From positions 1 to 54,204 of the IMG/VR virus record IMGVR_UViG_3300027608_002214: a DNA stretch of 54,204 nucleotides; one strand, given 5' to 3'. Shown one piece after another: positions 4,084 to 36,983 of the stretch; within the stretch, counting starts at the first letter, position 1; each line of letters starts with the position of its first letter. The DNA comes from a virus. Below the pieces are notes generated by a model, which was given only the letters and a program-made list of their open reading frames with translations, did no database searches and had not been told where the DNA came from. Both the position numbers and the translations under genes were made by a program.

Positions 4084-4773
4084 TTATTCACAATTACTGA
4101 TTGCGTCATAAAAGAATTCCCTAACTTTACCGTCGTAGTCTAATTCTATTAGAAGATCGTATATTACATCATAGATTTTTCCCCATTCTTCACTATAATC
4201 ATAATAGCTTCTAATTTCAAAAATTTTATCTGTCATAAATCTTGCAATTTCACCCATCGTTTCGTTTACATAAGGAATCTCATAATTTGCTAACCAATAA
4301 TCACATACATCCTTTGGATTTAAATTATCAAGGTATTCATCCGCAATATATAATAATCTTCTACCTGTTGTTTTGTTGTCAACCCCCTCATTTATATTAT
4401 CTGATTTAACTTCATTATATCTTTCTTTTATTCTTTTACCATAATGTTTAAGTAGTGGTTTTCTAATTTGTTCATGATATTTTTCGGTATCCTCCTCATT
4501 ATCACTAAAATAAATTCGGTTATCATCATTAAAATATTCTTGTTCAATAAGTGTAACCATATCATCAATAACAAACTTTGCAAATACCCATAATGTTGTG
4601 TGTTCCTTCTCTTTAAATATAATTGACCTTGGGTTGTTCATAGAGTCCGCATTTTGTTCTAAAGCAAATTCAAACGCCTCTTCTATATCGTCAGATGATA
4701 CCCTCCTTCTAATAACGGAAGGTATTTGAGTTTCCTCACTTAATATTCTTCTTATGGATTCTTTTATATTCAT
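4084..4773 (-). CDS. Leader-bearing protein, RRR family, possible two-part polyprotein
   Basis: A 229-residue protein. Leader MNIKESIRRILSEE, then IPSVIRRRVSSDD, which starts a helical domain also found three times in the neighbour at 4774-5796. Around residue 129 a second possible site, NINEG, is followed by another basic start (TGRRLLYIADEYLDNL) and a second helical domain. The protein is acidic and rich in Tyr/Asp. No enzyme motif. I infer two cargo domains separated by an I-N-E processing site. Confidence 0.75.
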   Translation of the reverse strand: MNIKESIRRILSEETQIPSVIRRRVSSDDIEEAFEFALEQNADSMNNPRSIIFKEKEHTTLWVFAKFVIDDMVTLIEQEYFNDDNRIYFSDNEEDTEKYHEQIRKPLLKHYGKRIKERYNEVKSDNINEGVDNKTTGRRLLYIADEYLDNLNPKDVCDYWLANYEIPYVNETMGEIARFMTDKIFEIRSYYDYSEEWGKIYDVIYDLLIELDYDGKVREFFYDAISNCE

Positions 4774-5796
4774 CTATAAATCTAATAATAAATTATTATA
4801 TCTCACATTTATTCTATGTTTGTAGTGGTCTCTTAAATTATTAAACACATCATCATACCAATCTGAATTTTCAGGTGTTGTACTGTGTAGTTCATGATGG
4901 ATTCCATCCATCATCATTGAGATTGTTATGTGTTCAAAACTTTCTTGAGTTCTAATAAACCCCCCATTTTGACTTACGCGAACTAACATACCTGATGACT
5001 TGTCTAACGATTCAATAAATTCTCTCTCTAAATCATCATGTGGGACTCTGCGTCGGATCATAGGCAAAAGATTATTCTCTTCCCTTAACACTTTTCTTAT
5101 GGATTCTTGTATGTCACCACCAAACACCTCAACATATCTATCTTTAATCTTATCATAAAAATGATTTAAAATAAAATTATAAACCTCATCATATGGGAAA
5201 TTATCATAATCTTCATCAGATAAATTATCACGATAATCATCAATAAGATATGATATAACAGTAGTTCTAAACACATTAAAACTACAATATTGTCCATTAT
5301 TATGTTTTCTTAAATATTTATCGGTAACAATATTTAAATTTGTTAAGAATTTTTTATCTATTGTACTCATATCAGCTCTTCTACGAAGATATGTAGATTC
5401 ATTAAGTTCTTCCTTTAATACTTTTCTTATTGATTCTTTTATAGGAATTGAACCTGAACCACAATTATCGTCGTAATGTTTCATTATTTTGTCTTGGTAT
5501 TTTTTTCTAATATAATCAACCATATCAAGATATTCATGAGCCCATTCTCCTGAATTATCATCTATATGAAAAAAATAATTAAAATACATAGCGTTAATTG
5601 CACTCTCCATTACTGATTCAAAAAATTCTATATCACTTTTAAAAAATACACATATATTAGATCCTCCAAATGGACCATTTAGTACGCTTTCAACTTCATA
5701 ATCCAAATTTTCCAATCTTCTTCTAAGAAAATTAGACATTTTTTTATCTTCCCTTAACACTTTTCTTATGTGTTCATGTAATATATTACTATTCAT
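4774..5796 (-). CDS. Polyprotein with three in-frame leader+RRR units
   Basis: A 340-residue protein made of three tandem units. Leaders are at residues 5-17 (ILHEHIRKVLRED), 118-131 (IPIKESIRKVLKEE) and 228-241 (DIQESIRKVLREEN). Each is followed by a triple-arginine start (FLRRRLEN, YLRRRADM, MIRRRVPH) and a helical domain ending in a Lys/Arg-Tyr-rich helix (KDRYVEVF, NVRYNNLL). Unit length is about 105-115 residues. No catalytic motif is seen. The start overlaps the upstream gene by eight bases, and the stop abuts the next start. The simplest reading is a polyprotein cut after L-x-E into three related small proteins. Confidence 0.8.
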   Translation of the reverse strand: MNSNILHEHIRKVLREDKKMSNFLRRRLENLDYEVESVLNGPFGGSNICVFFKSDIEFFESVMESAINAMYFNYFFHIDDNSGEWAHEYLDMVDYIRKKYQDKIMKHYDDNCGSGSIPIKESIRKVLKEELNESTYLRRRADMSTIDKKFLTNLNIVTDKYLRKHNNGQYCSFNVFRTTVISYLIDDYRDNLSDEDYDNFPYDEVYNFILNHFYDKIKDRYVEVFGGDIQESIRKVLREENNLLPMIRRRVPHDDLEREFIESLDKSSGMLVRVSQNGGFIRTQESFEHITISMMMDGIHHELHSTTPENSDWYDDVFNNLRDHYKHRINVRYNNLLLDL

Positions 5797-6697
5797 GTAA
5801 AAATCTCCCCTCTAAATCTATTTCCCTCACCTCAAGACCTGAGTTTTCTTCAAACCATCTTTTAAATGTTGGAATCCATTTATTACCAAATATCGATGTT
5901 AATTCATTAACCACCCATCTATTTATGGATAACAAATATAAATAATCATACCCATCGTGTTCTCCAAAATAGGAATATGCTTCAATACCATTAATCTGAA
6001 ATGTGTGCATCCCATAATAATTAACTTCCTTCTTATAATATTTGTGTGTTATGTGTTCTTCAGGTCCCCAAGGATTGGTAAAATCAGGATATAGTTCTTC
6101 TTTTAGGTGTTCATATATTAATCCATCAAGACCTTTATCATCAAGATCCAATATCTTTATTAACCTACTTATTCCACCAACGGCTGTTGATGCCATTTTA
6201 ATACCAAATTTATTAATCATATTCTTCAGTTTGATCTGAATTGTTGATTCTTCCCTTAATATTCTTCTTATATTCTCTTGTATGTTCTTATCAATTAACA
6301 TATCCATAGGGTTTATACCAAGTTTTTCTAAACCCCAAAGTATTTGATTGTATTTTCCGTCATATATTTTATCAACAAAATTTTTATGCTGTTCTGTTGG
6401 AGCTACTTTAGTAATTGCCTTTAGAATCCACCCATCTTCACTTGAATGTTCTACATTATATAAAGTTAGTAAATGAGTATAAGGTTCTTCCAACCATTCT
6501 TTATAAGTTTTTGAATTTGGGTCACCATCAATTGCGGGTGTAACAAAAACAACCCCCGAATTAACCAATTTATCAATATCAAATGGTAACCTTTCAGGAA
6601 CTGTGTCTCTTTTTTTGTCATAATCATAAACCCTTTTATCCGGATTTAATTCCTCATCTTCCCTTAATATTCTTCTTATGGATTCCTGTAGGTTCAT
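5789..6697 (-). CDS. Polyprotein with two leader units; second unit is SVGG family
   Basis: A 302-residue protein. Leader 1 (MNLQESIRRILRED) leads a mixed domain (residues about 20-135) of unknown function. Leader 2 (residues 138-150, NIQENIRRILREE) is followed by IQIKLKNMINKFGIKMASTA-VGG, the start of a domain shared with genes at 6751, 7741 and 8641. A TATTTAT box lies at 6702-6708. Probably cut into two proteins; what they do is unknown. Confidence 0.8.
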   Translation of the reverse strand: MNLQESIRRILREDEELNPDKRVYDYDKKRDTVPERLPFDIDKLVNSGVVFVTPAIDGDPNSKTYKEWLEEPYTHLLTLYNVEHSSEDGWILKAITKVAPTEQHKNFVDKIYDGKYNQILWGLEKLGINPMDMLIDKNIQENIRRILREESTIQIKLKNMINKFGIKMASTAVGGISRLIKILDLDDKGLDGLIYEHLKEELYPDFTNPWGPEEHITHKYYKKEVNYYGMHTFQINGIEAYSYFGEHDGYDYLYLLSINRWVVNELTSIFGNKWIPTFKRWFEENSGLEVREIDLEGRFLHE

Positions 6698-6750: not shown

Positions 6751-7206
6751 TTATCCTTCCAAATACCACCATAAGACAGATTCAAATATTGTATCCACAA
6801 CTTTAGGATCTAATCCATCATATTGTATTGTTACATCACCCAATTCACTAAATCCATCATCATGATTATAATACATTGCAATTACACCATATGTTGTTAC
6901 TATTTCTATTTGTAAGAAATCATTAGTATCTTCATATTCTTCAATTATTATTGGTTCTAAACCGGCATCATTTAAATCTAATTCTTCATCTAAAAATTTT
7001 TCTGAGTCAACAATCTCAACTATCGCATCTATCTTCATTTGAGTTGTCATAAATCCAAAATCCCCCATAATCTTTTCTAAATTATCCATCCCACCAACAG
7101 ATTTGGCAGCATTAATTAACCCATACTTATTAATCATATTCTTCAGTTTGATCTGAATTGATGATTCTTCCCTTAATACTTTTCTTATGGTTTCTTGTAG
7201 GATCAT
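6751..7206 (-). CDS. Leader-bearing SVGG-family protein
   Basis: A 151-residue protein. The ATG at 7206 shares its A with the upstream stop (TAATG) and gives MILQETIRKVLREES; a longer frame to 7227 would overlap the upstream gene and precede the leader, so I reject it. After the leader comes IQIKLKNMINKYGLINAAKS-VGG, then an acidic alpha/beta region (IEIVTTYGVIAMYYNHDDGF). Same domain as in 5789-6697 unit 2, 7741-8613 and 8641-9105. Function unknown. Confidence 0.75.
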   Translation of the reverse strand: MILQETIRKVLREESSIQIKLKNMINKYGLINAAKSVGGMDNLEKIMGDFGFMTTQMKIDAIVEIVDSEKFLDEELDLNDAGLEPIIIEEYEDTNDFLQIEIVTTYGVIAMYYNHDDGFSELGDVTIQYDGLDPKVVDTIFESVLWWYLEG

Positions 7207-7739
7207 TACTTTGTCTTCTTGACACAATTAGGGTATCGTTTACCAAACATCGTCTTCATACCTTTTTGAGTATATCCTGCCCAACATTTTTCTGTAAGTT
7301 CACCTTCTTTCATTTCTTCTTGTCTACCAATATGACTAAAGACTTTTCTTATATCTTTGGGTAAATCGTTAATTGGTATTACCTTTGCCTTAATTGTTTC
7401 TAACCCTTTTCTTACCGCCTTTTGTGCTCTGTGGTGTCCATCTATAATTGATATGAATTCACCATCATTATCAACAAATATTAATATTGGGTATTGTAAA
7501 TCGGCACTATCTATTTTTATAATTTCTTCTTCATCACCATCCCAACTTAATAGGTGTGGTTTTAATTCTTCTACTGAAACTCTTTCCACAGGAATATCTT
7601 CTGTTGCATTTAATAAATCCATAAGGGTTATTTTGTCACCCTCATCATTTTGCCAAGATGTATCGTGTAAGCCCTCATTAATTACTCTTTTAACTAATAA
7701 AATAAGTTCTGACTCTGTTAATCTTATTATTTTTTTCAT
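7206..7739 (-). CDS. Leader-bearing ParB/sulfiredoxin-like protein
   Basis: A 177-residue protein. Leader MKKIIRLTESELILLVKRVI ends in INEG at residues 20-23. Residues 84-122 match the ParB/Srx nuclease-type fold: ILIFVDNDGEFISIIDGHHR (DGHHR at 100-104), then a short helix and strand (KAVRKGLETIKAKVIPI). The last 26 residues (CWAGYTQKGMKTMFGKRYPN, then CVKK) form a separate Cys-containing module preceded by ELTE, another possible cut site. ParB-like domains bind or cleave DNA, or bind nucleotides; which applies is open. Confidence 0.75.
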   Translation of the reverse strand: MKKIIRLTESELILLVKRVINEGLHDTSWQNDEGDKITLMDLLNATEDIPVERVSVEELKPHLLSWDGDEEEIIKIDSADLQYPILIFVDNDGEFISIIDGHHRAQKAVRKGLETIKAKVIPINDLPKDIRKVFSHIGRQEEMKEGELTEKCWAGYTQKGMKTMFGKRYPNCVKKTK

Positions 7740-7740
7740 A

Positions 7741-8613
7741 TTACCTGTTGTATGGTCTAAACCTTGCTGGGTTTGCTTTTATTGCTGACTTTGGGAATCT
7801 TAATCCAACCCCCTGTTGTCTTGCGTTTTTTAATGTTCTTGCGTATTCTGTTAGTTCCTTATCTGTAATATTGTGACAATTTTCAAGATAATAATCTTCT
7901 AACTCATGGTGCTTAAAGTCATTCACATAATGTGTTACATCAAATTTATCTAACATATCAAGATCACCGTGGTATTCATCTCTTAACTCCCATAGAAGTT
8001 CGTCCAAAACCACATAAATAAACTCATCAGGTGTATTATACTTACATAATTCTATATCTTTTATTACCTTTACAATTAGATCATCTAAACGTTGTACTCT
8101 TCGTATTAATTCATTTGGTAATTCTCTTGGTCCTTTTTTTTTAGATTCTAATAAGTCTTCCTCATCATCTTCATCAACAACTTCAGCATCTAAAAATATT
8201 TTACACCCACTCAATGCGAAAACAGGATGCCACGCTGGTCGTACTTTAAAAGGAAATAATTCTTTATTAAGATAATCACATATCTCATTCACATACCAAC
8301 TTGTTACATTTGACGCCATGTGTCCAGTTTTAAAATGAACGTCAAGAATCTTACCCCCATTATTAGATGATCTAACCTCAATAAATGACACATCAATCTG
8401 ATCAAATTTAGTATGGTAAATAAAATTTTTAACTAACATTTCTTGAGTATCTACGTCATATAAATCAAGATTTAATATCTTAGCAACATTTTTCATCCCA
8501 CCAACTGCAGTTGATGCCATATCAATACCTTTATTATCAATTAGATTTTTAAGTTTAACGGATAAAGATGTTTCTTCGGTTAATACTCTTCTTATGGATT
8601 CTTGTAGGTTCAT
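7741..8613 (-). CDS. Leader-bearing SVGG protein with a second RR domain
   Basis: A 290-residue protein. Leader MNLQESIRRVLTEE, then LSVKLKNLIDNKGIDMASTA-VGG (SVGG family) to about residue 150. An acidic linker (DEDDEEDLLES) joins it to a second helical domain beginning ELIRRVQRLDD, similar to the triple-Arg family. The C-terminus is a basic tail (ARQQGVGLRFPKSAIKANPA). No internal full leader is seen. A TATTTAT box is at 8618-8624. Function unknown. Confidence 0.75.
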   Translation of the reverse strand: MNLQESIRRVLTEETSLSVKLKNLIDNKGIDMASTAVGGMKNVAKILNLDLYDVDTQEMLVKNFIYHTKFDQIDVSFIEVRSSNNGGKILDVHFKTGHMASNVTSWYVNEICDYLNKELFPFKVRPAWHPVFALSGCKIFLDAEVVDEDDEEDLLESKKKGPRELPNELIRRVQRLDDLIVKVIKDIELCKYNTPDEFIYVVLDELLWELRDEYHGDLDMLDKFDVTHYVNDFKHHELEDYYLENCHNITDKELTEYARTLKNARQQGVGLRFPKSAIKANPARFRPYNR

Positions 8614-9680: not shown

Positions 9681-10541
9681 TTATTTAGCCCATTTTGAAT
9701 TTTTTAATTCAGACCTTGGATAAAACCCATCAGCATATTTATCATATCCTGTACCAAAAAAATTATTTTTATCAAGTTTGTCTTGCCAATTATTATATTG
9801 GGTTGTATACTTCCATACTTCGTCTTTATTTGTCATGTAACCATTATTTTTAAGATAAGCACCAACCATCCCTCCAGTTCTATCCGCACCATGAGCACAA
9901 TGAATTAATGTATTACCTTTATTTAAAACTTCACTAGTTTTTTGTATTGATTGGGTATATCCTTTTCCCTCTTTGAACCCACTATGTGAATCAATATAGT
10001 GGTAAGTACAACCATTTTCCTCACATATTTTCCTCTCAGTGTCTTTAGGTGTTTCAGTATGTTTACTTCTATGTTTTTCGTGATCACCACTCATTCTGAT
10101 AATATTTTTTATTCCATATTTTTTAATTACAGAAGGTAATATGTCTGCGGTTATTTGGGCTGATCTCCAATTATTTTGACCTCCAGGTATTTTAGCAAAT
10201 TTAAAGTCTTTTAAATCGTCGGGTTGAACGTCTTTCTCCTTAGTTTTCGTATCATTTTTAATGTCTTTATCATTAGTTTTTTTATCTTCTTTAAATTTTT
10301 TGTATTCTTTATCTATTTTTTCTAATTCTTCTTCACTTGCTGTTGATTCAAGTTTGGATTTAAACTCTTTTTTATCAATTACCCTATTTTTAAATAATTC
10401 AATTAATTTTTTAATTTTTTCAGATAAAAATTCATATATAAAAGATAAAAATCCCTCATTTAATTGATCTTCATTGTAAAATTTAACAATTTTTTTTAAT
10501 TGCTCTTCAGTTATTTTTATTTTTAATTTTCTTTTTTTCAT
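9681..10541 (-). CDS. Leader-bearing tyrosine/dual-specificity phosphatase-like protein
   Basis: A 286-residue protein, start chosen at the ATG at 10541 where MKKRKLKIKITEEQLKKIVK begins. Residues 1-85 are nearly identical to the next gene and contain LNEG (28-31). A charged linker follows (85-112). Residues 115-235 hold a phosphatase fold with the signature LIHCAHGADRTGG (Cys215, Arg221; H-C-x5-R). Cysteine phosphatases of this class remove phosphate from proteins, lipids or RNA ends; target unknown. The stop is adjacent to the M15 gene. Confidence 0.82.
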   Translation of the reverse strand: MKKRKLKIKITEEQLKKIVKFYNEDQLNEGFLSFIYEFLSEKIKKLIELFKNRVIDKKEFKSKLESTASEEELEKIDKEYKKFKEDKKTNDKDIKNDTKTKEKDVQPDDLKDFKFAKIPGGQNNWRSAQITADILPSVIKKYGIKNIIRMSGDHEKHRSKHTETPKDTERKICEENGCTYHYIDSHSGFKEGKGYTQSIQKTSEVLNKGNTLIHCAHGADRTGGMVGAYLKNNGYMTNKDEVWKYTTQYNNWQDKLDKNNFFGTGYDKYADGFYPRSELKNSKWAK

Positions 10542-10555
10542 AATTCTTTTATTAA
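10288..10555. repeat. 268 bp direct repeat, copy 1
   Basis: Encodes the N-terminal leader and helical stalk of the phosphatase-like protein plus the bases just upstream of its ATG. Copy 2 is at 11228-11495, same length, with only scattered differences. Confidence 0.85.
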
Positions 10556-10563
10556 ATGATAAT

Positions 10564-11481
10564 CTAAGTAATATTTTTAATGTCAAATTTGTCAACTGCC
10601 GCAATCGCATTTGCCCTATGAGAACTAACTCCTCCACCAGCATTTATATCAGCAAAATGAGTAGCGGCTTCAGTTTTATTTTTAAATTTAGGAAATGTAT
10701 TACCTGGTTTACCTTTAGTAAAAAATGCGACAGCAATTTCCGCAGCAACTGTTGGGTCGTTAGCTAAGTCAGGATTTCCTACTAAGTTTCTACCAATCAT
10801 ATTACCATATTTTTCGTAATTTTTTTTACCTGTTAGTTGGTTAAATCCTCTACCTCGGTATTTCCATCCATCACCACCACCTTGGTTTCCAACTGTCTTT
10901 GCATACACTACGTTGAAGAATTTTTCAGGGTTTTTTTTAAGAGAGTCCATTTCACTATCTGAATATTTTGAAACTCTAGACCCAAAAATTTTTCTAATTC
11001 TTGAATTTGATGTATTGGCATAAGATACTTCAGATTTTGGTCTAAAATTTGATTCTTTAGATATTACAGATAAAACGCCAATTTGAGCCAATGGGTCTTT
11101 GATTCCTGATTTATTCATGTATTTAATCATTAACTCAATATTAGCTTTCTGTGTTGAGTCAAAATTACCCTTTAAAAAAACTTTACCTGTATCTCCATTA
11201 TAATTAGGAGTATCCGATTTTTTTTCATCTTTAGATTTTTTGTATTCTGTACCTATTTTTTCTAATTCTTCTTCACTTGCAGTTGATTCAAGTTCAGATT
11301 TAAACTCTTTTTTATTAATTTCCCTATTTTTAAATAATTCAATTAATTTTTTAATTTTTTCAGATAAAAATTCATATGTAAAAGACAAAAATCCCTCATT
11401 TAATTGATCTTCATTATAAAATTTAACAATTTTTTTTAATTGCTCTTCAGTTATTTTTATTTTTAATTTTCTTTTTTTCAT
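10564..11481 (-). CDS. Leader-bearing GH19 lysozyme/chitinase
   Basis: A 305-residue protein starting at the ATG at 11481. Residues 1-85 duplicate the leader/stalk of the phosphatase gene. From residue 104 a GH19 catalytic domain follows: GVLSVISKESNFRPKSEVSY (Glu143 and Glu151 in the positions of the catalytic pair of H-E-S-x-G-F...E-x-x-x-Y in phage GH19 enzymes) and KYRGRGFNQLTGKKNYEKYG. It hydrolyses peptidoglycan glycan strands in phage relatives. The shared N-terminus suggests the same destination as the phosphatase. Confidence 0.87.
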   Translation of the reverse strand: MKKRKLKIKITEEQLKKIVKFYNEDQLNEGFLSFTYEFLSEKIKKLIELFKNREINKKEFKSELESTASEEELEKIGTEYKKSKDEKKSDTPNYNGDTGKVFLKGNFDSTQKANIELMIKYMNKSGIKDPLAQIGVLSVISKESNFRPKSEVSYANTSNSRIRKIFGSRVSKYSDSEMDSLKKNPEKFFNVVYAKTVGNQGGGDGWKYRGRGFNQLTGKKNYEKYGNMIGRNLVGNPDLANDPTVAAEIAVAFFTKGKPGNTFPKFKNKTEAATHFADINAGGGVSSHRANAIAAVDKFDIKNIT

Positions 11482-11495
11482 AATTCTTTTATTAA
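11228..11495. repeat. 268 bp direct repeat, copy 2
   Basis: Second copy of the leader/stalk segment, now in front of the GH19 domain. The breakpoint at about residue 85 separates identical N-terminal halves from unrelated catalytic halves. Confidence 0.85.
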
Positions 11496-12112
11496 TTTTC
11501 TTCGAATTGTTTCTGCCAAATATGTTCAAAACTTATTTGTAATCGTTCATCATCTTGTTCTTCCCAATATGTTCTTCCTCTTCCTGTGGACTCAATATAA
11601 TCAAGAATTTGTTCTCTATCGTAATTTGGGATATCTTTAATCAATTCATATTCACACAATCTATTTTTGTAATCGTGTTCATCGGCATCATCCAAATCAT
11701 TGAATTGTATACCATATTTTTCTGATATATAATTTATATAATGATCCTCAAAATACTCAGTCAATAAATGTAAGGCTAAACCTCTTCTTATATTAAATGT
11801 CGCTGTTATCTGATCTACAATTTTTTTATCAAAACTTATTCCAGCATAAGGATCTATTTTTTGGGTTTCGGAGTCATCATCCCAACCAGGTTCATCACCA
11901 CCGCTAAAGTCAGCCACTACTCTACCATTTAAACAAAATTCTACGGATACCGAACCATATGATCTTTTTGGATCTTTATATTCTACTCTCATAGATTTAA
12001 ACAATAATGATATCTTTTTTGTTATAACATTACTTAATTCAGGACTTAATCTTCTATATTTACTTTGAATCTCTTCCCTTAATACTTTTCTTATTGATTC
12101 TTTTAGGTTCAT
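11492..12112 (-). CDS. Leader-bearing protein, function unknown
   Basis: A 206-residue protein. Leader MNLKESIRKVLREEIQ, then SKYRRLSPELSNVITKKISL, a basic helix. The rest is mixed alpha/beta and acidic at the end (YWEEQDDERLQISFEHIWQK). No catalytic motif. TATTTAT at 12117-12123 supports the start. Confidence 0.75.
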   Translation of the reverse strand: MNLKESIRKVLREEIQSKYRRLSPELSNVITKKISLLFKSMRVEYKDPKRSYGSVSVEFCLNGRVVADFSGGDEPGWDDDSETQKIDPYAGISFDKKIVDQITATFNIRRGLALHLLTEYFEDHYINYISEKYGIQFNDLDDADEHDYKNRLCEYELIKDIPNYDREQILDYIESTGRGRTYWEEQDDERLQISFEHIWQKQFEEN

Positions 12113-14043: not shown

Positions 14044-15684
14044 TTAACCCCATTCTAAATATACTTGATCAATCTCAACACCTAAAGAATTAACAGTATG
14101 CCATATAAAATTTTCTATAATCTCTTTAATTTCACTATCTAATTCCCACCATAATTCATCGTTAATTAATTCATGATCCGTTAAATTATAATGTTCCCCA
14201 TTAAATGTATCAACAGTACCTTCAATAATATCAAAAGACGCATAAAGTTCTGAATCACCATTCGCCGTAATATTTGTTTGTTCAAATGACATATCAACTA
14301 TTTTAAAAACAAAATCATAATTACCAACACCAATATCCATATCTTCCACATCCTGAGTTGTAAAAGTTTTACCAATAAAATAGTTTTTGATATTTCTAAC
14401 TAACTCTTCTTGACCCCCAATGTATTCTATATAGTAATTACGGATCTCATCTACTCGTTTTAATAACCCCAAATTACTTATTTGTTTTAAATTAAACATT
14501 GGTATTTTACCTTCCGATTTTTTTGTGTCCCACACTTTAGTAAAATACTTTTTTAATAGATTGGTTTCTTCTTTTAATATTTTTTTTATTAATTTTTTAC
14601 TTGAGGATTCCATCTGTCGATTGTGTGTATTATTTTGTTCATCAATATGAAAAATTAAACGAATATTGTGTGTTCTAATAATATCTGAAGCCACGGTTGA
14701 AATAAAAAAATCATCGTAGTCTACCCATTCAAAAACACTACTAAAGTTAACATCTATATAAACATTAAACATAGGATATTTACCAAAATTTTTTTTTATT
14801 TTTTCAACATTTTTAACATTAACATTTCCAAGAGTATCCAACACATCACAGGTATCAAAATTTAACCAATCAGGCCAAGTCTCGTTATCTGACGTGTCAC
14901 AAATATTTTTTATTGTGTTAATACTTTTATTAACTATTTTATTAAATGTTTCAGCTAAATTACTTTCATTGATTGATCCTTTACTTAGTTTATCATCATT
15001 AATAGATTCTCTCCATAAACTTCTTCCATTACCTTCATGTATTAATTCTATTGCTTCTGGTGGTATGTTATCAAATGTTACTATATGTTTTTTAGATGAT
15101 TCAAAGTGTCTATCTTTATACCATTTAACTTTAGGTATCATTTCCGTATTAATTCCCCATACATCATCGTCGTATGTTGAATCAAACCAAGCCCTTTTAT
15201 TTGTTGAGTTAGTTGCAAATATTGCCGGTATACACTTCTCACCATAACCAACATAAGTCGTATAACAATCTCCAGCGCTCACTTCTAATCCAATTCTTAA
15301 TATACTTTCTCTCCATACAGGACTTGATTTATGTATAACAATTCTGTTTGGTGTAATTTCTTTACCTGCAGGACTATAATTTTCATTTATATTACCACTA
15401 TTTTTTCTTTGATTATAATAATACGCCTTAAGTACAGGTTCATAAGTATCAACCATATATTTAATGAAATCAGAAACATCATATACAGGTACAGTATATA
15501 ATTCAATTTCGTATTTGTAGTGGAGATAGTTTTCTAAAGTTGCTTGGACCAATTTCCATTTGAACTCTTCTAAACTTTTGGAATCATGGTAGATATAGGA
15601 AATACCTTTCCTCATCATTTTTTCAAATTTATGGTGGTCAATTCGTCTCTTGAAGAATGGTGGTATATTGTGATCGTTACTCAT
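14044..15684 (-). CDS. Large multi-domain polyprotein with ART-like segment and internal leader
   Basis: A 546-residue protein in four apparent parts. Residues 1-95: RRR-like start (IPPFFKRRIDHHKF) and helical domain. Residues about 112-220: VIHKSSPVWRESILRIGLEV, then VWGINTEMIPKVKWYKD and HIVTFDNIPPEAIELI, resembling the ADP-ribosyltransferase/KptA-like fold found in phage and toxin proteins. Residues 241-355: unknown. Residues 361-374: full internal leader (SSKKLIKKILKEET), then a C-terminal domain. The parts are separated by NINEN (99), SINES (238) and ILKEE (369), all I/L-x-E. I infer processing into four proteins. The ART assignment is tentative. Confidence 0.7.
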   Translation of the reverse strand: MSNDHNIPPFFKRRIDHHKFEKMMRKGISYIYHDSKSLEEFKWKLVQATLENYLHYKYEIELYTVPVYDVSDFIKYMVDTYEPVLKAYYYNQRKNSGNINENYSPAGKEITPNRIVIHKSSPVWRESILRIGLEVSAGDCYTTYVGYGEKCIPAIFATNSTNKRAWFDSTYDDDVWGINTEMIPKVKWYKDRHFESSKKHIVTFDNIPPEAIELIHEGNGRSLWRESINDDKLSKGSINESNLAETFNKIVNKSINTIKNICDTSDNETWPDWLNFDTCDVLDTLGNVNVKNVEKIKKNFGKYPMFNVYIDVNFSSVFEWVDYDDFFISTVASDIIRTHNIRLIFHIDEQNNTHNRQMESSSKKLIKKILKEETNLLKKYFTKVWDTKKSEGKIPMFNLKQISNLGLLKRVDEIRNYYIEYIGGQEELVRNIKNYFIGKTFTTQDVEDMDIGVGNYDFVFKIVDMSFEQTNITANGDSELYASFDIIEGTVDTFNGEHYNLTDHELINDELWWELDSEIKEIIENFIWHTVNSLGVEIDQVYLEWG

Positions 15685-36422: not shown

Positions 36423-36983
36423 ATGAAAATTATTTTAACTGAATCTCAATATTCAACATTATTAAATGAGGTAGTTGATTTTAATTCACTATATAAATCT
36501 TTATACCCAAAAATGTATCGACAAGTTTGTTTGAAATATGCAAATGGAGATGAAGAAAAAGCAAATGATTTTTGTCAATTAGGGTTCATTAAAGTATATC
36601 AAAAAATTAGTATGTACAATGAGTCAGGACCTATTGAGGCTTGGGTAAAACGTGTAATCACAAATACAGTAATTGATGAATGGAAAAAAGAAAAAAGAAG
36701 TCCATACAAAAACCCCATTGACTTTGAACGAGCAAATTTAGAAGTAATTGACGACACCCCAGAAGAAAGTTTATATTCATCAAAAGAGATTAAAGATGCC
36801 GTTGAAACTTTATATCCTTCACAAAAAAAAGTATTTGAGATGTTCTTTTTTGAAAATATGAAACATCAAGAAATTGCCGAAGAATTAGGGATTAGTGAAA
36901 GCACATCAAAAACTAATTTATTTAAAGCAAAGGCAAAAGTAAAACAATACCTAATTAATTTAAACAAAAAAAGGGAAGACTAA
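36423..36983 (+). CDS. ECF-type sigma factor with virion-type leader
   Basis: A 186-residue RNA polymerase sigma factor. Residues 1-17 (MKIILTESQYSTLLNEV) match the leader of the zinc-ribbon protein at 16369 (MKIIITEEQSKLLLEG), ending in L-N-E. Region 2 follows (NDFCQLGFIKVYQKISMYNE, AWVKRVITNTVIDEWKKEKR) and region 4 has a helix-turn-helix (HQEIAEELGISESTSKTNLF). It should direct host RNA polymerase to specific promoters, perhaps the TATTTAT class. A sigma factor carrying this leader is unexpected; packaging is an inference. Confidence 0.85.
   Translation: MKIILTESQYSTLLNEVVDFNSLYKSLYPKMYRQVCLKYANGDEEKANDFCQLGFIKVYQKISMYNESGPIEAWVKRVITNTVIDEWKKEKRSPYKNPIDFERANLEVIDDTPEESLYSSKEIKDAVETLYPSQKKVFEMFFFENMKHQEIAEELGISESTSKTNLFKAKAKVKQYLINLNKKRED

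Follow-up and report, generated by a model that had tools for sequence, protein, structure and literature searches.

We propose that a 340-aa open reading frame (ORF) in a 54,204-nt viral contig (IMG/VR record IMGVR_UViG_3300027608_002214; the whole analysed stretch, hereafter the window) is probably a polyprotein of three paralogous, head-packaged cargo domains that the prohead protease opens at capsid-targeting-like leaders. The ORF runs uninterrupted for 340 codons from an ATG and contains three units in one frame, each consisting of a leader and an RRR domain (Table 1). We infer cleavage by a gp21 homologue, packaging and injection; that the products would be packaged in virions is suggested by analogy with T4 and by the occurrence of gp21 and gp23 in relatives.

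The arrangement of three leader and cargo units in a single frame had been described in a first-pass annotation of the window, and profile searches confirmed it. Leaders were called by profile; a hand-made regular expression overlooked most of them. The leader helices ILHEHIRKVLRED, IKESIRKVLKEE and IQESIRKVLREE were found at residues 5-17, 119-130 and 229-240, as compared with 5-17, 118-131 and 228-241 in that annotation, and no leader-profile match of at least 10 bits was obtained after all 1,436 ORFs had been shuffled with their composition preserved. Leader 1 reads ILHEHIRKVLRE↓D (arrows mark predicted cuts), leader 2 reads IKESIRKVLKE↓ELNE↓S and leader 3 reads IQESIRKVLRE↓E. Since the internal leaders also begin with (L/I)xE↓S (IKE↓S and IQE↓S), trimming on both sides may be possible. 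Each leader is followed by one copy of the helical RRR domain of ~90 aa, consistent with the similar sizes noted earlier. The unit-to-unit comparison that had been suggested as a check shows that domains A, B and G are homologous: a profile of unit A matches residues 22-112 (6.5e-36), 136-221 (1e-4) and 247-334 (8e-6), and the RRR profile matches residues 137-221 (2.6e-29) and 246-334 (6.7e-35).

Relatives share these joints. The codons of leader 2 are identical in contig L002, the leader 3 joint is also present in L172, and the orthologous A-B joint in L181 has lost the helix and kept the site (SIKE↓STFFRRR). Because the joints recur in these three independent contigs, we rejected an assembly artefact.

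Table 1 Leaders, cargo domains and joints in the multi-unit ORFs of the window
Feature	Position	Strand	Basis
340-aa ORF, three leader and RRR units	4774..5796	-	ORF reading, leader profile, domain profiles
Leader 1 (residues 1-16)	5749..5796	-	T1 leader profile 22 bits; predicted cut VLRE↓DKK after E16
RRR domain A (residues 22-112)	5461..5733	-	profile A 6.5e-36, profile F 1.4e-14
Internal leader 2 (residues 118-133)	5398..5445	-	17 bits; sites IKE↓S, LKE↓E, LNE↓S
RRR domain B (residues 136-221)	5134..5391	-	RRR profile 2.6e-29
Internal leader 3 (residues 228-239)	5080..5115	-	21 bits; sites IQE↓S, LRE↓E
RRR domain G (residues 246-334)	4795..5061	-	RRR profile 6.7e-35
Internal leader in two-unit neighbour ORF 5789-6697	6251..6286	-	20 bits
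Bare joint INE↓G, RRR unit/Y unit of ORF 4084-4773	4387..4395	-	domain profiles either side
Bare joint LLE↓S, VGG/F units of ORF 7741-8613	8146..8154	-	profile search
Bare joint INE↓N before SPAG unit, ORF 14044-15684	15382..15390	-	SPAG profile 1.1e-62
Internal leader-like helix KKLIKKILKE↓E, ORF 14044-15684	14569..14598	-	by eye, without profile match

The first-pass annotation had taken a tag inside a protein as strong evidence that the leader is cut. Because an identical remnant would be expected if tandem genes had simply fused, the internal tag alone is no proof of cutting, and to this extent the argument falls short. Its direction is nevertheless supported by comparison: LxE is kept at internal leaders and at helix-less joints, it matches the capsid protein site, and whole modules have been gained or lost between NES sites in related chains. 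With a profile of the helix only, [ILVM]xE was present at a fixed offset in 25/25 internal and 128/138 N-terminal leaders, against a background of 3.6%. A search with cargo only recovered related chains of 649-1,065 aa, in which the modules are joined by INE↓S, LNE↓S, MNE↓S, LRE↓S or LME↓S. [ILMV]xE occurred within 17 residues in 45 of the 49 helix-less joints, as compared with 28.7% of windows from the same proteins; when these were collapsed to 34 independent joints, 33 had the site (36.5% of 23-residue windows) and 31 had a stricter motif (8.6% of 23-residue windows), the joints being partly kin by descent, so that P values for these comparisons are overstated. NES motifs are not generally enriched in leader ORFs (0.18 versus 0.13 per 1000 aa); the enrichment is found in multi-unit chains only. 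Given that the bare joints and the L181 joint keep the site without the helix, we conclude that the cut-site is what the chain retains, and that the internal helix is optional.

These data bear on a second explanation, in which tandem leader and cargo genes were fused in frame by recombination and the product works uncut, perhaps packaged, with its internal leaders as scars or linkers. The main argument for such a relic is that the leader DNA of unrelated genes is alike beyond codon usage (80% identical synonymous codons, as compared with 52% predicted). One 36-mer, CTACAAGAATCCATAAGAAGAATATTAAGGGAAGAA, recurs without mismatch in 21 of the 138 T1 leaders, in front of differing cargo (L006-L066 and leaders of the window), and some joints are DNA-identical between contigs. 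This likeness suggests spread by recombination, for which the leader DNA may provide the seam; because the likeness extends to synonymous sites, some of the internal leaders may have arisen by recent recombination. However, relics should decay, whereas pN/pS of the internal leaders and joints is ~0.30 (14 joint pairs, some of which share sequence; 29 synonymous and 35 non-synonymous changes). Moreover, xxE is kept in every internal leader scored, and the sites outlast the helix, both in the independent helix-less joints and as IKE↓S in L181. We therefore consider an uncut fusion product unlikely.

Leaders can be exchanged between cargoes. Among 459 non-redundant leader and cargo units, 240 homologous cargo pairs have different leader types, with the seam at the site, and 6 cargo clusters occur in both N-terminal and internal position. 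For example, the same cargo follows two leaders in MKKIIRLTESELILLVKRVINE↓GLHDTSWQN (window) and MNLQENIHRIKQMMGVINE↓GLHDTSWQN (G010), and the VGG-F cargo, which starts with an ATG and a leader of its own both in the window and in L004, lies behind an internal leader in L003.

The predicted site is shared with the major capsid protein (MCP). We aligned 16 MCPs to T4 gp23, which sheds a 65-residue propeptide (PMC9026906); T4 E65 corresponds to the E of (I/L)NE↓A/S or VTE↓T in 16/16, and the leaders end in (L/I)xE, as at this site. Against this agreement, the prevailing P1′ residues differ: E/D follow the leaders, S/N are found at bare joints and A/S/T in MCPs. The first 10 residues of T4 IPIII are enough for packaging, with residues 4 and 7 serving mainly in targeting and residues 8 and 10 in processing (PMC9026906); we read the N-terminus of T4 IPIII and IPII as MKTYQEFIAE↓A. 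A leader that served instead as a targeting or docking helix for a site other than the head, such as an assembly site or the membrane, with the conserved E as a binding surface rather than a cut-site, would suit the cell-wall enzymes among the cargo (Pfam matches include lysozyme, GH19 chitinase and VanY), which could act elsewhere. We regard this as highly unlikely, given the agreement of xxE with the capsid protein site, the retention of xxE↓S at bare joints without any helix, and a layout that parallels the T4 capsid-targeting signal (CTS; PMC9026906). Separate translation of the units from internal starts, with the long frame incidental, could draw on the annotated internal start of T4 gene 21 and on a GTG five codons upstream of leader 3, but is most improbable, since this GTG is not conserved (GCG in L172), no ATG, GTG or TTG is present at leader 2 or at 33 of 39 internal T1 leaders (a larger set than the 37 non-redundant internal leaders first collected), and bare INES joints would be left unexplained.

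Two structure models of modest quality (mean pLDDT 62.5 for the 340-aa ORF, built from 14 sequences, and 58.9 for a 904-aa relative) are consistent with cleavage between domains. The model of the 340-aa ORF comprises helical domains, of which B and G reach pLDDT of ~70-88, and leaders 2 and 3 form separate helices (~37-66). Hence, the possibility raised in the first-pass annotation, that internal leaders are part of a continuous folded domain, is answered in the negative by the model, with modest confidence. In the 904-aa relative, all 6 joints are in segments with pLDDT <50, and single-domain fold matches fall between the joints, at residues 190-279, 284-381 and 660-754. The models thus suggest, again with modest confidence, that the joints lie in low-confidence linkers between modelled domains. 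In a Foldseek search, the 340-aa model had no match with E below 1, and ribosomal-protein matches of the long relative were set aside (target TM <0.35). The long relative also matched the tRNA 2′-phosphotransferase Tpt1 (prob 1.00, E 0.005), with an ADP-ribosyltransferase-like fold. This match probably falls on the SPAG unit; a SPAG sequence profile had no match among solved structures, so we treat it as a lead. T4 Alt is a packaged ADP-ribosyltransferase.

The pattern is wider than first claimed. An internal leader also lies within the neighbouring ORF 5789-6697, and bare xxE joints connect the units of three further multi-unit ORFs, 4084-4773, 7741-8613 and 14044-15684 (Table 1). The units of ORF 4084-4773 were matched at residues 21-120 (RRR, 7e-21) and 138-228 (Y, 1.4e-46). 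The INE↓N joint of ORF 14044-15684 was found also in L192; the SPAG cargo unit itself is at 15025-15378 (-), with related loci L183, L184 and L187.

In the window, an ECF-type sigma factor at 36423-36983 (+), with Pfam sigma70 regions 2 and 4, starts with a T3-type leader (MKIILTESQYSTLLNE) and is possibly head-packaged. The adjoining genes 9681-10643 and 10564-11529 (-) have nearly identical N-terminal regions of ~80 aa (MKKRKLKIKITEEQLKKIVKFYNEDQLNEGFLSF...), behind which are unrelated enzymes, one phosphatase-like (by eye) and one a GH19 chitinase (Pfam). A C-terminal motif, GYTQKGMKTMFGKRYPNCVKK, recurs at the ends of cargo proteins (7206-7739 (-), G001 L144:17421-18710 and L021), and in G001 an internal leader directly follows it.

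We found the DNA pattern of the leader in 61 stretches of IMG/VR contigs, the contigs being up to 308 kb, and in 257 Gb of bacterial genomes it gave two chance frames only. In four genomes, read piecewise, N-terminal leaders of four types are present on 33, 41, 32 and 25 ORFs (131 in all). Peptidase_S77 (PF03420, the T4 gp21 type) was detected in 19 of 27 leader-bearing contigs and gp23 in 18 of 27, the genes being close together; the head cassettes of relatives comprise TerL, a T4-type portal, protease, scaffold and MCP. The window is a fragment with no head genes, and its link to protease and capsid runs through relatives: among the genomes tested, the best match for one phage gene of the window was in G021 (68%), which has both. 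The source seems to be a large lake phage. In relatives L091 and L104, ribosomal protein bS21 (PF01165) is encoded inside the block of TerL, portal, protease and MCP, but on the opposite strand. The available part of a report on bS21 phages presents this protein as a hallmark of freshwater Bacteroidetes phages, and describes neither the leader family nor polyproteins (PMC9723584).

Pfam and PHROGs searches with 10 leader ORFs gave nothing convincing, and tblastn of the 340-aa ORF and four other leader proteins against named phages gave nothing useful. The isolated T4-type Flavobacterium phage immuto has gp20, gp21 and gp23, and no leader match >12 bits. Genes near the MCP in L091 (478-1701) and L104 (11037-12467) also have leader-like and xxE joints (IKEATSDS, ILREATSDS), and the latter has an internal T2 leader. 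G002 (268,739 bases) has two different gp21-gp23 head cassettes (L107 and L108) ~200 kb apart; either two phages are joined in a chimeric contig, or one phage has two head modules.

For a polyprotein of this kind, each leader would be a capsid-targeting-type signal ending in a prohead-protease site, (L/I)xE. The N-terminal leader would draw the precursor into the prohead core, and a gp21-type protease would then cut at every joint during maturation, after E16, E129 and/or E133, and E239, giving predicted products of ~12.4-13.4, 11.9-12.9 and 12.1 kDa. These would remain associated with the DNA and be carried into the next host, like T4 IPI-III and Alt. Chains would originate when adjacent leader and cargo genes fuse in frame; the internal helix may later erode, with the xxE↓S site retained. 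Somewhat less firmly, we favour the wider view that modular polyproteins are the form in which a clade of T4-type Bacteroidetes jumbo phages delivers its arsenal, and that in these chains cassettes fuse, shuffle and shed the internal helix while keeping xxE↓S, with one tag carrying the whole string of modules into the head and the prohead protease separating them.

The polyprotein strategy is best known from RNA viruses. As in viral polyproteins, the single frame of the 340-aa ORF encodes several domains, with predicted sites of one protease between them. Polyvalent proteins, multi-domain proteins for which packaging, injection and division into units have been proposed, have likewise been compared with RNA-virus polyproteins (PMC5512222). 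However, polyvalent proteins depend on embedded peptidase domains (PMC5512222), whereas no peptidase domain was found within the chain described here and its sites match a prohead protease acting in trans. Polyvalent proteins combine disparate domain activities; in the 340-aa ORF a single type of domain occurs three times, and longer relatives mix types. Substrates of the prohead protease of SPN3US and phiKZ-type phages are similarly cut after E, with P1′ Ser favoured and several cuts per protein, but the multi-cut propeptides of SPN3US are shredded and mostly lost from the head (PMC10052503), and they are without repeated cargo domains. Our search of the open-access literature yielded no account of CTS or prohead-protease sites being repeated between cargo domains, or of polyprotein cargo in phage heads. 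If our reading is true, the protease that matures the capsid of a DNA phage also processes polyproteins of injected cargo; the occurrence of xxE at module joints is then a sequence rule that predicts which of the many uncharacterized jumbo-phage genes encode packaged proteins, and the mature products of these genes; and the arrival of dozens of unrelated proteins in one head would be explained.

Close parallels exist in T4 itself. The core proteins gp22 and gp67 are each the product of one gene that gp21 cuts at several sites, with products kept in the head (PMC9026906); their fragments are scaffold remnants, whereas here whole folded domains lie between the sites. T4 IPI-III and Alt share with the leader proteins a short N-terminal helix-like tag on unrelated cargo, ending in hydrophobic-x-E (PMC9026906), as well as the protease family and gp23 capsid encoded in relatives. 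In T4 there is one tag per gene, on three IPs and Alt; here each genome has 25-41 tagged genes, and within one chain tags or bare sites recur between domains. The cargo polyprotein that we propose is the T4 capsid-targeting system in a new form.
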